Below, in pieces: positions 18,658 to 52,994 of a stretch of 64,000 nt of DNA. Made by a program: the position numbers and the translations under genes. Positions within the stretch are counted from its first letter, which is position 1. Each line of letters opens with the position of its first letter. The stretch lies in contig NZ_JAAGAA010000010.1 in NCBI RefSeq assembly GCF_010435965.1, forward strand, positions 62,001-126,000. Reading direction: 5' to 3'. Below the pieces are notes generated by a model. That model had not been told where the DNA came from, did no database searches, and saw nothing but the letters and a program-made list of their open reading frames with translations. Source of the stretch: Crenobacter caeni (lineage in GTDB: Bacteria; Pseudomonadota; Gammaproteobacteria; Burkholderiales; Chromobacteriaceae).

Positions 18658-19023
18658 ATGTTCAGTGCGATCGCGAGTCTTGCCGGACAGGCCAGTGCCA
18701 ATACGGCGCGCAAGCTGTGGCGTCAGTTGAATTTCGTTCCCCCGCACAAACGCGGCATCGATCCTGTCGGCGAAGCCGAGGTGTTCCTGCACTACGGCAG
18801 GCTCGACGACGCGGTACTGGTGCTGCGCGACGCGCTCAAGCGCGACGCCGGCAACACCGCCGCCAAGATCGCGCTGCTGCGCGCCTACTCGCTGCAACGC
18901 AACGCCGACGGCTACTCGCAACTGGCCAAACAACTGCGCGAAGAACTGCACACCTACCCGGTGTGGAACACCGTGCGCAAGAACGGCCAGGCGATCGACC
19001 CGCACAACCCGCTCTACCAGTAA
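18658..19023 (+). CDS. FimV C-terminal-domain-like TPR protein
   Basis: This 121-residue protein has a tetratricopeptide-like region, VGEAEVFLHYGRLDDAVLVLRDALKRD (about residues 38-65) followed by TAAKIALLRAYSLQRNADGYSQLAKQL. This resembles the conserved C-terminal domain of FimV/TspA, whose full-length members are large LysM-containing inner-membrane proteins acting in pilus function and polarity. Here only that module is present, with no signal peptide, LysM or membrane segment, so it should be cytoplasmic. Its place between the pil operon and the minor pilin genes supports a pilus-related role, but this is inference. GGGGGG before TGTC-ATG is the ribosome site. Confidence 0.7.
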   Translation: MFSAIASLAGQASANTARKLWRQLNFVPPHKRGIDPVGEAEVFLHYGRLDDAVLVLRDALKRDAGNTAAKIALLRAYSLQRNADGYSQLAKQLREELHTYPVWNTVRKNGQAIDPHNPLYQ

Positions 19024-45072: not shown

Positions 45073-46605
45073 TCAGGCCGGCTGCGCCGCCGCGAGCCAG
45101 GTCGCGCGGCCGCGGCCGGCGTGCTTGCTCTGGTACAGGCGCGCGTCGGCCAGTTGCAGCAAGGCTTCGGCGTCGGCGGTCTCGCCCGAGGCAGCCGCGC
45201 CGACGCTGACGCTGACCACCAGTTCGCGCTCCCGCCACTGCAGGGCGCACACCCGCGCGAACATCCTGTCCAGCAATGCCGCGATATCGGCCGACCCGTC
45301 CGCCAGCGCCATCAGCTCGTCGCCGCCGGTGCGGTAGAGCGCCAACGCCGTCTCGCCCTCCTGCAGGGCCGCGCCCAGCCGCTGCAGCACGGTGTCGCCG
45401 AACAGGTGGCCGTAGCGGTCGTTCAACTGCTTGAAATGGTCGATGTCGATGGCCAGCAGCCAGAACGGCGCGCCGGCCTGCCAGCGGCGGGCGAAGTCGG
45501 CGTCGAAGGCGCGGCGGTTGGCCAGGCCGGTCAGCACGTCCTGCTGCGACGCCCGTTTCGCGTCGTCCAGTTCGCGCGCGACGCGCTGGATCACCCCCAA
45601 CTGCTCGCCGACAAACCAGGTCCGCGCGCGCCGCGGCAGGGGCTCTGCAGGCATGGCTCCCTGCGATAACGCCGCCATCGCCGAGGACAGCAACGCCTGC
45701 TCGCGCACGAAGATGCGCTTGAACAGCGAGAACCCGACCAGCCACAAGGCCAGCAGGCCGAACAGCCCGACCAGGTAACGGGGCGCGGCCTCAAGCAGTT
45801 CGCGGCGCACCTCGGCAGCCGGCGTATAGAGCACGACGTCCCATGCCGGCGACGGCAGTTGCCGGTACACCAACACGCCGTATCGCAAGGCCTGCACGAG
45901 GTCCGCCGAAGTGGCCGCACGCCGCAGGGATGCAGCGCCGATCGGCGTGCGCAAAGGGTTGGCCGCCGCGACGACACGCCCGTCCCGGTTGAAAATGGTC
46001 AGCGTCGCAGGCGTGGTGCCGACCACGCGTTCGAGCGCCCGTTCGAGCGGAGAGATCGCCAGGTCGACCATCAGCAGCCCACGCAAAGCACCGTCCGCGC
46101 CACGCACGCGGCGCACCGCCGTCATCATCGGCTGATGGCTGCTGAATTCGGAGTAAGGGCCAACCCAGGTGGTTTCGTCCCGGACAGCCGGGTCAAGCAG
46201 TACGGCCCACGGCCGCTCGGCGGCGACAAAACCGGCCGGCCGCGTCCATGCGGGGTAGGCGTCGATATGGTCGGTGCGGGCATTGTAAAAATAGGCATGT
46301 TCGCCACCGGCCTTGAGCGCGCGCACCAGGACCGGCCAGGACGGTGACAACGCGAGCCCGCTCTCTCCCGACTCCTCTAGCTGGGCCGACAAGGCGCCCA
46401 ACAGCGCACGGTCCCTTTCAAGTTGCTCCTGCAGGTAGACACCGGTAAAGGTGTCGAGCAGCGCTTCGTAGACCTGGCGCCGCCGCTCGAGCGCGGACTG
46501 CAGATCGAACGCCAGTAGTAAGCCGGCCAGCAGCGAGGTCAGCAGCGCCATCAGCAGGGTGGCCGACACCAGCAAACGGTGCAGGGAATGCTTGCCGTTA
46601 AGCAT
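45073..46605 (-). CDS. Membrane diguanylate cyclase with periplasmic sensor domain
   Basis: This 510-residue protein has two membrane helices (about residues 12-33 and 272-296) around a periplasmic Cache-like sensor, and a cytoplasmic GGDEF domain (about 345-505). The active-site motif reads GGDEL (in YRTGGDELMAL), with all catalytic positions but the last matching. The metal/substrate residues DIDHFKQLNDRYGH are intact, so activity is likely. The inhibitory RxxD site is absent. It should make c-di-GMP in response to an external ligand. A promoter with TTGTTT and GATAAT is seen upstream. Confidence 0.88.
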   Translation of the reverse strand: MLNGKHSLHRLLVSATLLMALLTSLLAGLLLAFDLQSALERRRQVYEALLDTFTGVYLQEQLERDRALLGALSAQLEESGESGLALSPSWPVLVRALKAGGEHAYFYNARTDHIDAYPAWTRPAGFVAAERPWAVLLDPAVRDETTWVGPYSEFSSHQPMMTAVRRVRGADGALRGLLMVDLAISPLERALERVVGTTPATLTIFNRDGRVVAAANPLRTPIGAASLRRAATSADLVQALRYGVLVYRQLPSPAWDVVLYTPAAEVRRELLEAAPRYLVGLFGLLALWLVGFSLFKRIFVREQALLSSAMAALSQGAMPAEPLPRRARTWFVGEQLGVIQRVARELDDAKRASQQDVLTGLANRRAFDADFARRWQAGAPFWLLAIDIDHFKQLNDRYGHLFGDTVLQRLGAALQEGETALALYRTGGDELMALADGSADIAALLDRMFARVCALQWRERELVVSVSVGAAASGETADAEALLQLADARLYQSKHAGRGRATWLAAAQPA

Positions 46606-46659: not shown

Positions 46660-47520
46660 TCAAAGCAGGTCGAGGAAGGCCTGCAGGCCGCGTCCCGGCA
46701 CGCGCTCGCGCCGGCGCACCCGCCACAGCGTGCGGGCAAGGACCGGCAGCGCGCCTTGCAGCGTGCACAGGCGGCCATCGGAGAGCCAGTCTTCGACCAC
46801 CCGCCGCGACAGGCAGGACACGCCAAAACCCGCAGCGACCGTGCGCTTGATCGCTTCCGAGTCCCCCAGCTCCAGTTCCAGCCGCAAGCCGGGCAGGTGT
46901 GCGAGCAGCAGCCGCTCGACTTCCTCGCGGGTGCCCGACCCCGCCTCGCGCAACACCCACGGTGCGTCGGCGAGTTCCTCAGCCGTCAGCGTCCGCCCGG
47001 CCAGCGGGTGGCCGGGGGCGGCGAATACCACCAGCTCGTCCTCTTGCCACGGCTCGACCAGCAGCGCCGGATGCTGGCACGGCCCTTCGACCAGGCCGCA
47101 GTCGACCGAAAAATCGACGACCGCGTCGACGATGTCGCGGGTATTGGCGACCCGAAGCTCAAGCTGGGCGCCCGGGTAGCGCCGGCGAAAGTCGGCCAGC
47201 GGGCAGGGCAGCAGGTAGTTGGCGATGGTGGTGCTCGCCCCGAGGCGGAACAGCGGCAGCTCGGTCTCGAACAGGCGCTCGAGCGCGGCGGCGTCGGCTA
47301 GCAAAGCGCGCGCCTGAGGCAGCAGCCGCCGCCCGTTCTCGTTGAGGACCAGCCGCCGTCCGGCGCGGTCGAACAGGCGCACGCCGAGGCTGACTTCGAG
47401 CTTGTCGAGCGCCTGGCTCGCCGCCGACTGGGTCAGCGCGACACGCGACGCCGCCGTGGTCGCCGAGCCGTGCACGGCGATGGCGACGAACACCTCGAGT
47501 TCACGCAGGGTAATCCTCAC
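46660..47520 (-). CDS. LysR-family regulator, divergent from YeiH-type genes
   Basis: This 286-residue protein has an N-terminal winged helix (SATTAASRVALTQSAASQALDKLE near residues 19-42) and a two-lobed LysR substrate-binding domain. It starts at GTG 47520 with a G-rich ribosome site. It is divergent from the first YeiH gene, the usual pattern for a LysR activator of its neighbour; in E. coli YeiE is next to YeiH and controls sulfite-related functions. Analogy is strong but not proof of the same ligand. Confidence 0.9.
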   Translation of the reverse strand: MRITLRELEVFVAIAVHGSATTAASRVALTQSAASQALDKLEVSLGVRLFDRAGRRLVLNENGRRLLPQARALLADAAALERLFETELPLFRLGASTTIANYLLPCPLADFRRRYPGAQLELRVANTRDIVDAVVDFSVDCGLVEGPCQHPALLVEPWQEDELVVFAAPGHPLAGRTLTAEELADAPWVLREAGSGTREEVERLLLAHLPGLRLELELGDSEAIKRTVAAGFGVSCLSRRVVEDWLSDGRLCTLQGALPVLARTLWRVRRRERVPGRGLQAFLDLL

Positions 47521-47650
47521 CCGCCCCCCTTATTAAATTTACTGATACCAAGAATGAAATATATCCATTTTTTTTATTTAAGCAAAAAAGGTATCGTCCG
47601 CTCCCATTAAATGTCGGCCACATCCCGTCCGGCACCCTACGGATCACACG
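47521..47650. promoter_or_regulatory. Divergent control region between LysR and YeiH genes
   Basis: This 130-base gap is strikingly AT-rich between about 47531 and 47590 and contains the palindrome TAAATTTA (47534-47541). Such a region normally holds LysR boxes and both promoters. I cannot place a single certain T-N11-A site because several overlap. GGATC precedes the YeiH ATG. Confidence 0.45.
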
Positions 47651-48586
47651 ATGAACCTTCCTACCATCCTGCACGGGCAAGATCCCCGTCTGCTGCCCTT
47701 TATCGCGCTGGCGCTGCTCAGCCCGCTGTTCTCGCCGGCCATCGGCCTGTTCGCCGGCCTCGCCTTCGCGCTGTCGGTCGGCAACCCGCTGCCTGCGCTG
47801 AGCAAGAAACTGTCCAAACAACTGCTGCAGTACTCGGTGATCGGCCTGGGCTTCGGCATGAACCTGCACGAGGCGCTGGCGTCCGGCCGCGACGGCATGC
47901 TGTTCACCATCGTTTCGGTCAGCCTGATCATGGTGCTGGGTTGGGTGATCGGCCGACGCCTGAAGCTCAGCGACGGCACCGCCTACCTGATCGCCGCCGG
48001 CACCGCCATCTGCGGCGGCAGCGCGATCGCCGCCGTCTCGCCGCTGACCCGCTCCAGCGAGAGCGAGATCTCGGTGTCGCTGGCAACCATCTTCGTGCTC
48101 AACGCGGTCGCGCTGTTCATCTTCCCGCCGCTGGGGCACTACTTCGGGCTGACCGACCAGCAGTTCGGCATCTGGGCCGCGATGGCGATCCACGACACCA
48201 GCTCGGTGGTCGGCGCCGGCGCCGCGTACAGCGAGACCGCGCTCAAGGTGGCAACCACGGTCAAGCTGACCCGCGCGCTGTGGATCATCCCGCTCGCCTT
48301 CGTCACCACCCTGATATTCCGCGACCGCGACGCCAAGATCCAGATCCCCTGGTTCATCTTCTTCTTCGTGCTGGCGATGGTCGCCAACACCTATGTCGAG
48401 ATCCCGGTGGCGTTCAGCCATGCGGTAGTGTGGGTGTCGAAGAAGGCGCTGGTGCTGACGCTGTTCCTGATCGGAGCCGCGCTGTCGCGCGACGTGCTCA
48501 GGCAGGTCGGCCTCAGGCCCATGCTGCTGGGCGTGCTGCTGTGGGCGATCATCGGCAGCGCCAGCCTCGCCGTCCTCAAGCTGTAG
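47651..48586 (+). CDS. YeiH/UPF0324-family transporter, first copy
   Basis: This 311-residue protein has about nine or ten membrane segments. The YeiH family motifs are LLQYSVIGLGFGMNLHEAL near residue 58, AAGTAICGGSAIAAVSP near 115, and AIHDTSSVVGAGAAY near 178. YeiH proteins are putative sulfate/sulfite exporters; the LysR neighbour fits this, since E. coli YeiE responds to sulfite. The second copy downstream is only distantly alike in sequence but has the same motif order. Confidence 0.85.
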   Translation: MNLPTILHGQDPRLLPFIALALLSPLFSPAIGLFAGLAFALSVGNPLPALSKKLSKQLLQYSVIGLGFGMNLHEALASGRDGMLFTIVSVSLIMVLGWVIGRRLKLSDGTAYLIAAGTAICGGSAIAAVSPLTRSSESEISVSLATIFVLNAVALFIFPPLGHYFGLTDQQFGIWAAMAIHDTSSVVGAGAAYSETALKVATTVKLTRALWIIPLAFVTTLIFRDRDAKIQIPWFIFFFVLAMVANTYVEIPVAFSHAVVWVSKKALVLTLFLIGAALSRDVLRQVGLRPMLLGVLLWAIIGSASLAVLKL

Positions 48587-48604
48587 GCACTCCGCCGGCA
48601 AGAC

Positions 48605-48655
48605 GGGAGCGGGCAACTATCATCTGGATAGAAAACTCCAGATGAGCTCGCTCCC
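48605..48655 (+). repeat. Nested inverted repeats in the leader of the second YeiH gene
   Basis: Two perfect inverted repeats are nested: an outer GGGAGCG/CGCTCCC pair (48605-48611 with 48649-48655) and an inner 9-bp TCATCTGGA/TCCAGATGA pair (48620-48628 with 48637-48645) around an 8-base loop. The structure ends three bases before the ATG at 48659. The bases before the ATG are CTCCCTCC, with no Shine-Dalgarno. No T-run follows, so it is not a terminator. Confidence 0.6.
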
Positions 48656-48658
48656 TCC

Positions 48659-49699
48659 ATGAAAAACGACAAAATCATTTCGCTGCTGCCCGGCCTTGCC
48701 CTCTCGATCGCGCTGGCGCTGGCCTCGATGTGGCTCGCCGAGCTGGATGCCATGCGCCGGCTTGGCTTTTCCGCGCTGACCATCGCCATCGTCGGCGGCA
48801 TGCTGCTGGGCAACACGGTCTACCCGGCCATCGCCGGCCGCTGCCACGACGGCGTCGACTTCGCCAAGGCCAAGCTGCTCAGGCTGGGCATCATCCTGTT
48901 CGGCTTCAGGCTGACCTTCCAGGACATCGCCGCGGTCGGCGTGATGGGCATCGTGATCGACGCGCTGATCGTCGCGTCGACCTTTTATCTCGCGTGGGTG
49001 CTCGGCCGGCGCGTATTCAAGCTCGACGAGCAAAGCACCATCCTGATCGGCGCCGGCAGCTCGATCTGCGGCGCAGCGGCGGTGCTCGCGACCGAACCGG
49101 TGCTGCGCGCGCAGGCGGACAAGGTGGCGGTCGCGGTCGCGACCGTGGTGGTGTTCGGCACCCTCGCCATGTTCGTCTACCCCGCCGCCTGGCACGCGCT
49201 GGTCGCGGCGGGCTGGGTGCACAACGACACCTTCTTCTACGGGGTCTTCAGCGGCGCGACCATCCATGAAGTCGCGCAGGTGGTCGCCGCCGGCAAGGCC
49301 GTCGGCGAAGACGCGGCGACCAGCGCGGTGATCACCAAGATGATCCGCGTGATGATGCTCGCGCCCTTCCTGATCTTCCTGTCGGCGTGGCTGGCCCGCC
49401 GCCACCGCGGCGGTGGCGCCAAGGGGCGCGGCAAGGTGCAGATCCCCTGGTTTGCCGTGCTGTTCCTGGCCGTCGCCGGCTTCAACTCGCTCGCGCTGCT
49501 GCCGCAAGGCTGGGTCGCCGAAGTCGTGGTGTTCGACAATGTGGTGCTGGCCGCCGCGATGGGCGCGCTCGGGCTGACCACCCATGTCTCGGCGATCCGC
49601 CGTGCGGGCGTCAAGCCGCTCACCCTCGCCGCGATCCTGTTCGCGTGGCTGGTCGTCGGCGGCGCCCTGCTGTGTACCCTGCTGCTGGGTGCGCCCTGA
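48659..49699 (+). CDS. YeiH/UPF0324-family transporter, second copy
   Basis: This 346-residue protein has about ten membrane segments and the family motifs [19 protein letters not shown] near residue 73, [17 protein letters not shown] near 130, and [16 protein letters not shown] near 198. It is a complete YeiH-family member and differs widely from the first copy. The 72-base gap between the two holds a nested inverted repeat. It ends five bases before the stop of the convergent EAL gene. Export of sulfite or a sulfonate-like anion is a guess. Confidence 0.86.
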
Positions 49700-49704
49700 A
49701 CCCG

Positions 49705-52994
<3,290 letters not shown>

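Follow-up and report, generated by a model that had tools for sequence, protein, structure and literature searches.

The 72-nt gap between two YeiH-family genes of Crenobacter caeni folds into a non-random hairpin that stops just short of the second gene's start codon, and across a small group of relatives the sequence of this operon junction appears to have turned over with its RNA shape kept. We tentatively suggest that the gap is an intercistronic stem-loop that would insulate yeiH from the first gene's ribosomes and restrict its own initiation. The DNA analyzed was a 64,000-nt stretch of contig NZ_JAAGAA010000010.1, here called the window, to which coordinates refer unless another record is named.

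The yeiE-yeiH locus

The gap separates two co-directional genes that diverge from a regulator gene:

46660-47520, minus strand: LysR regulator of the yeiE type, the gene from which the pair diverges (PF00126 and PF03466)
47651-48586, plus strand: first gene, a divergent YeiH-like (UPF0324) protein (PF03601, 196.9 bits)
48587-48658, plus strand: intercistronic gap, 72 nt, folding into a hairpin (gap plus ATG, z -4.8; 0 of 300 shuffles as good)
48597-48604, plus strand: block GGCAAGAC, immediately 5' of the main hairpin
48605-48614, plus strand: outer stem, 5' arm, holding the sole GGAG-like bases of the gap
48615-48619, plus strand: bulge of 5 nt, AACTA, with no counterpart on the 3' side
48620-48628, plus strand: inner stem, 5' arm
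48629-48636, plus strand: loop of 8 nt, TAGAAAAC
48637-48645, plus strand: inner stem, 3' arm
48646-48655, plus strand: outer stem, 3' arm, sitting where a ribosome-binding site would be
48659-49699, plus strand: second gene, canonical YeiH, a putative sulfate/sulfite exporter, with an ATG start (TIGR00698, 369.7 bits, above the cut-off of 232.6)

The regulator scored 376.9 bits against NCBIfam PRK10837.1, exceeding the cut-off of 281, and 374.1 against the YeiE equivalog model, under that model's cut-off of 480. The first gene scored 117.4 bits against TIGR00698, under the cut-off of 232.6; the second protein has a 95% identical orthologue in C. intestini. Both genes are likely sulfite exporters. 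A Salmonella study describes YeiE as an activator, with yeiH transcription requiring YeiE and sulfite, and sulfite resistance depending on yeiH (PMC12880088); judged from gene order and family only, the same control of yeiH is the likely setting in Crenobacter. The spacer between yeiE and the first gene (47521-47650) contains AT-rich blocks (TTATTAA..TTTACTGAT and TATCCNTTTTT) that recur by eye in the yeiE-yeiH spacers of many relatives, and these are likely a YeiE control region. Cyclic-di-GMP genes, encoding a GGDEF protein and a CHASE4-GGDEF-EAL protein, flank the module (45073-46605 and 49705-52068).

Among the genomes searched, both the tandem pair and orthologues of its first gene were found only in this genus; the pair is in all four of its genomes, and each of the three besides that of the window carries a first-gene orthologue (84-97%). 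In 50 of 57 other genomes of the family the first gene gave matches of 26-32%, which, in genomes covered by both searches, were mostly canonical yeiH itself. An order-level sample of 399 genomes contained 14 besides the window's with a first-gene homologue (E <=1e-40, 38-43% identical); 11 fetched loci of these (L102-L112) had no canonical yeiH within the fetched flanks, and 3 of the 11 had a yeiE relative. A yeiH search of contigs returned 17 loci, comprising the three relatives and 14 without an adjoining first-gene ortholog, and 25 of 26 yeiH loci from outside the genus (L006-L031, with L026 the exception) lie opposite a yeiE relative with no first-gene ortholog between them. These extra-genus pairs lack the first gene, so in this genus it seems to have become interposed between yeiH and the promoter on the yeiE side. 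Literature searches found no paper joining Crenobacter and sulfite, and, among the matches listed, no title on tandem YeiH paralogues or on bacterial gaps of this kind.

Separately, the yeiE-yeiH DNA of a Kineococcus record (L037) is 96-99.9% identical over 2.1-4.2 kb to that of L034, L035 and L036, records of Pseudoalteromonas, Acinetobacter and Alkanindiges; two of these records contain a short repeated segment. This near-identity would reflect either recent mobile-element transfer or, for Kineococcus, a contaminant contig.

Structure and stability of the hairpin

Two perfect inverted repeats, of 7 bp and 9 bp, can be read directly in the gap where the initial annotation had placed them. The outer arms (48605-48614 and 48646-48655) form 7 perfect pairs, GGGAGCG with CGCTCCC, extending to 10 with one G.U, and the inner arms (48620-48628 and 48637-48645) form 9 perfect pairs, TCATCTGGA with TCCAGATGA; the repeats stack into a single bulged 19-bp hairpin. 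The outer 3' arm stops at 48655, followed by TCC and the ATG at 48659, so that the repeats do reach to 3 nt from the start codon, with CTCCCTCC directly 5' of it, as had been described. In the other three genomes of the genus, the closing stem draws bases from a block similar to GGCAAGAC, spelled GGCAAGGC or GGCATGGC; these blocks were matched by eye across both subgroups. A mini-ORF of six codons, ATGAGCTCGCTCCCTCCATGA (MSSLPP), runs from 48642 to 48662, its TGA overlapping the yeiH ATG; C. intestini has a GTG mini-ORF with the same ending, and the Craterilacuibacter gaps lack a mini-ORF overlap.

The hairpin has a minimum free energy of -37 kcal/mol over 104 nt, against -23.5 +/- 3.2 for dinucleotide shuffles (z -4.2; 0 of 200 as good). 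We ranked the stretch from -75 to +3 among 320 gene starts predicted by our own script on two contigs: the window's yeiH start came second, with z -6.9, and that of C. intestini eleventh, with z -3.5, and several of the other top entries resemble terminators with a T run. Raw energy is not extreme, as 7-11% of 72-nt windows in this GC-rich genome fold equally well; adjusted for GC content, the folding energy of the gap lies in the best 0.36-0.65%.

Conservation of shape among relatives

The conservation sample consisted of four genomes in two pairs, C. caeni with C. intestini and two Craterilacuibacter, whose gaps measure 72, 67, 115 and 115 nt, respectively. With the ATG included, these gaps gave z of -4.8, -2.3, -4.1 and -3.9, with 0, 7, 0 and 0 of 300 shuffles as good. 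A four-way DNA alignment misplaces the start codons of the subgroups, and counts were not taken from it.

Over gap plus ATG, C. intestini and the window agree at 41 of 70 aligned positions and differ at 29. C. intestini nevertheless has a nested hairpin, with arms GGCGGGCC/GGCCCGCC and TCTGTGG/CCACAGA, flush with the ATG. Its 5' inner arm carries a TG insertion that two extra 3'-arm bases match, a pairing read from the sequences, as the MAFFT alignment puts the gap elsewhere. When the 29 differing positions were redrawn at random, 0.35% of draws were as stable (p 0.0035), and 0.075% in the reverse direction (p 0.00075); under a second null, in which the differing letters were permuted, the values were 5.4% for C. 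intestini (p 0.054) and 0.025% in reverse. Taken alone, C. intestini is the weakest case, its z varying with the stretch folded from -1.6 (14 of 200 shuffles as good) to -3.5.

The two Craterilacuibacter gaps, folded with 30 nt more, gave z of -5.0 and -5.1 (0 of 200 each). In their outermost stem, GGCATGG close to the stop codon is paired to CCATGCC at the start. The gaps differ at 16 of 130 positions, and within the central stem a T-A pair is exchanged for C-G; redrawing gave p of 0.024 and 0.028 and permutation 0.066 and 0.046. The gap of the fourth genome is 89% identical to that of its relative.

The initial annotation had proposed aligning this leader in relatives in search of paired changes, and its general idea survives that comparison: each of the four gaps folds, and the pairing persists although the letters have changed. 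Structure kept where sequence is not fits an RNA element, and the hairpin is probably real, because its shape persists in close relatives while the letters change.

A DNA element, that is an operator palindrome, an internal yeiH promoter or both, is by the same token very unlikely. The inner palindrome is symmetric over 26 bp, it shares CTATCATCTG with C. intestini, and TATCAT resembles a -10 box in our own reading. Minus-strand folding (z -3.1, -3.2, -4.7 and -2.1 for the four gaps) shows no consistent difference from the sense strand, and strand bias is thus no argument against DNA. However, the arms are re-spelled in C. intestini and the Craterilacuibacter gaps differ in sequence, on which grounds a protein-binding operator is disfavored, and prediction over 47400-49800 gave no sigma-70 promoter-like site, which leaves a transcript starting in the gap without support. 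The initial annotation had suggested here a regulatory switch or a binding site setting the level of the second transporter relative to the first: the general idea of an element that would act on that level survives, nothing positive points to a switch, and the binding site is disfavored, since C. intestini does not preserve the sequence of the palindrome.

Disfavored element types

No intrinsic terminator was called in the gap, the sole site in 47400-49800 lying inside yeiH (48957-48980), and the hairpin with TCCATGAAAAA downstream does not combine a GC-rich hairpin with a T run. Nor is the gap a REP/MITE-type repeat or mobile element, being single-copy with other matches limited to fragments of <=25 nt at E >0.01; three of the four gaps served as queries, self matches and the Craterilacuibacter orthologue were excluded, and the fourth genome was searched with its relative's gap. 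Rfam covariance models gave two sub-threshold matches in the window region, neither in the gap, and no match at E 0.5 in the gaps of the three relatives. Comparison with C. intestini, and of the Craterilacuibacter pair, found no long conserved unpaired motif in the gap. Operator, repeat, terminator and known riboswitch are thus all disfavored on these sequence comparisons.

The Rfam result and the missing conserved unpaired core also make it highly improbable that the gap is a switch responding to a ligand or to temperature (a riboswitch or thermometer), or that the mini-ORF at 48642-48662 encodes a leader peptide. Each gap could also form an earlier, competing small hairpin around CTATC, of uneven stability (-2.6, -8.4, -9.0 and -6.6 kcal/mol), which we take only as a lead. 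Against a leader peptide, the Craterilacuibacter gaps lack the overlap; against a thermometer, the stem is stronger than usual for that class.

The start codon of the second gene

The yeiH start is the ATG at 48659, with no in-frame start upstream before a stop. An internal start with a ribosome site of its own, which the initial annotation had held would count against its leader, is unlikely. We rejected the in-frame ATGs at 48728, 48752 and 48800, which all lie past the conserved LLPGLALS segment; none of them has a Shine-Dalgarno (SD) match of at least 4 bases, and none with such a site was found in the first 50 codons. The ATG at 48659 itself has no SD, as claimed: the best anti-SD pairing is -0.4 kcal/mol by our own score, and 88.8% of starts are at least as strong. 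The only SD-like bases of the gap are in the outer 5' arm, where they are paired, none being exposed. A looped-out SD, using AAGA/AAGG just 5' of the stem, was judged by eye too weak. Lack of an SD is common here: no motif of at least 4 nt from our own list precedes 61 of the 164 genes predicted on one contig and 64 of the 157 on the other.

In both Crenobacter the bases just upstream of yeiH are hidden. Mean unpaired probability over -18 to -1 is 0.13 in the window and 0.12 in C. intestini against a median of 0.45, placing both within the least accessible 1% of the 320 starts (-60 to +40 fold). Across 24 relatives whose yeiH is immediately next to yeiE, this region is open (0.19-0.76). The ATG is about half open (0.58 in the window, 0.43 in C. 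intestini). Both Craterilacuibacter bury the ATG itself, with an unpaired probability of about 0.001 when gap plus 30 nt is folded; among 95 comparable gaps (co-directional, 40-160 nt) this burial is equaled by 1 and 0. With 60-nt flanks on each side, the ATG bases of Craterilacuibacter RT1T are 0.16, 0.25 and 0.002 unpaired. Positions -18 to -1 are not hidden in this pair (0.53 and 0.66 in the -60 to +40 fold; 0.42 and 0.62 in the whole gap).

Listed by how near to the start their stems close, the window comes sixth and C. intestini third for the 95 gaps, and 8 of the 95 equal or surpass both Craterilacuibacter. The closeness of stem to start in all four genomes is the sole unusual point, and even this is paralleled by a handful of gaps on the same contigs. 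Two further gaps drew our attention. A small gene at 18658-19023 (plus strand), with its C. intestini counterpart at G002:C42:116938-117303, follows a gene that we take to be aroB-like across 66-67 nt, and the fold closes near the ATG in both species, a further conserved structure on the start side. At L084:4242-5141 (G000:C33:24242-25141, minus strand) and G002:C42:168222-169121, presumably an EamA-like transporter gene after a symporter-like one, a 58-nt gap has, in both species, a strong stem flush with ATGA and an AAGG inside the stem.

A crude initiation score over -35 to +35 ranks the second start at the 36th percentile in the window, the 72nd in C. intestini and the 12.5th and 16.6th in Craterilacuibacter (lower is better), marking it as poor in none except, moderately, C. 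intestini. In the window the second start scores 7.6, slightly better than the 9.8 of the first gene, whose own ATG is mostly paired (unpaired 0.08, and 0.001 in C. intestini). This score is a weak test because the cut at -35 and +35 opens long stems; as it slightly favors the second start, we only infer a low second-to-first ratio.

Discussion

The hairpin belongs to a known and common regulatory type and may keep yeiH translation low. Each functional step set out here is what we infer. A single YeiE-controlled, sulfite-induced mRNA would begin upstream of the first gene, with the gap forming an RNA stem-loop in the transcript of a two-gene operon. Counted in gap positions past the stop codon of the first gene, the stem of the window starts at 16-19, that of C. 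intestini at 12 and those of Craterilacuibacter at about 10-14, one Craterilacuibacter fold adding weak outer pairs from 6 onward. An onset about 10-19 nt past the stop would put the stem where the edge of a terminating ribosome is expected or slightly past it, and that ribosome would for this reason be released and not continue to yeiH. Because the stem takes the place of the SD or the ATG itself, loading of fresh 30S subunits would be limited to moments when the stem breathes or to binding without an SD at the A-rich codons that follow the ATG. Translation of yeiH would in this way be both insulated and restricted, at a fixed set-point and not by a switch.

This proposal is reminiscent of a synthetic operon in which stable structure right after a stop codon is reported to block re-initiation, such post-stop structures being enriched at gaps of at least 25 nt (Chemla et al. 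2020, PMC7518266). The gaps studied here resemble published RTS elements in having a stable fold just past the stop of a co-directional pair separated by at least 25 nt; they differ in that the hairpin is longer than the 40-nt folding window used there and, in addition, reaches up to or over the start codon that follows. We re-coded the RTS definition as at least 5 consecutive 40-nt windows, opening from -10 to +20, that fold better than shuffled sequence, one of them at <=-6 kcal/mol, in a gap of at least 25 nt. With 100 single-base shuffles per window, the four gaps (72, 67, 115 and 115 nt) gave runs of 8, 16, 16 and 7 windows with minima from -13.0 to -17.5 kcal/mol, and all four are RTS by this definition. 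This says little, because 113 of 144 co-directional gaps of at least 25 nt on these contigs qualify as well (20 shuffles).

The same position bears on translational coupling, in which the stem would repress yeiH until first-gene ribosomes open it, or the nearness of stop and start would hand the ribosome over. A review of such coupling describes several coupled second genes with a structure-masked start, and hairpins ending just before second genes (PMC12548453). The stop-to-stem distance is short in all four gaps, and with the main hairpin looped out only 21 nt (window) or 11 nt (C. intestini) separate stop from ATG. However, in contrast to the start-masking structures of phage f1 VII-IX and E. 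coli rpmI-rplT, here the upstream stop precedes the hairpin, so first-gene ribosomes should not melt it and its opening by first-gene translation is not expected. In f1, as the same review notes, placing the upstream stop far ahead of the hairpin abolished coupling (PMC12548453), and structure just after a stop is described as lowering re-initiation (PMC12548453, PMC7518266). We therefore favor insulation and start masking over opening by first-gene ribosomes, and regard coupling as unlikely.

The main rival of insulation and masking is an mRNA-decay barrier. The hairpin would block 3'-5' exonucleases, the first-gene segment would outlive the yeiH segment and yield unequal amounts of protein, and the nearness of the start codon would be incidental. 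A decay barrier needs shape without sequence conservation, as seen here, and the gap is nearly all hairpin in both Crenobacter. In E. coli, intergenic structure between malE and malF is reported to act as such a barrier, and about 12% of polycistronic mRNAs to be reshaped by differential decay (PMC5927463). Like malE-malF, the present locus has an intercistronic hairpin between two transporter genes that is kept in shape; unlike it, the hairpin is not a repeated element and is flush with the start codon. E. coli barriers are described as lying generally within the coding region of a flanking gene, at a mean of 107 nt into the downstream gene (PMC5927463), unlike here, and a barrier leaves unexplained why, in each of the four genomes, the stem either stands 0-3 nt from the ATG or overlaps it. 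We consider this reading somewhat unlikely. Between insulation, masking and decay, the effect may be largely one of insulation or mRNA stability, not switching.

A more elaborate scenario, which we hold to be quite unlikely, is that a stop-to-start stem selected only for its shape and quickly re-spelled evolved once the YeiH-like gene stood between yeiE and yeiH in this genus. It would hold the start at the edge of the ribosome finishing the first gene and meter ribosomes to the second exporter, possibly by a choice between two hairpins in sulfite stress.

Insulation, start masking and mRNA protection are usually confounded, and this junction offers a natural, compact case that could separate them. 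The YeiE-YeiH sulfite-resistance module around it has two exporters, a version that we found in a single genus and in which the ratio of the two proteins may matter.
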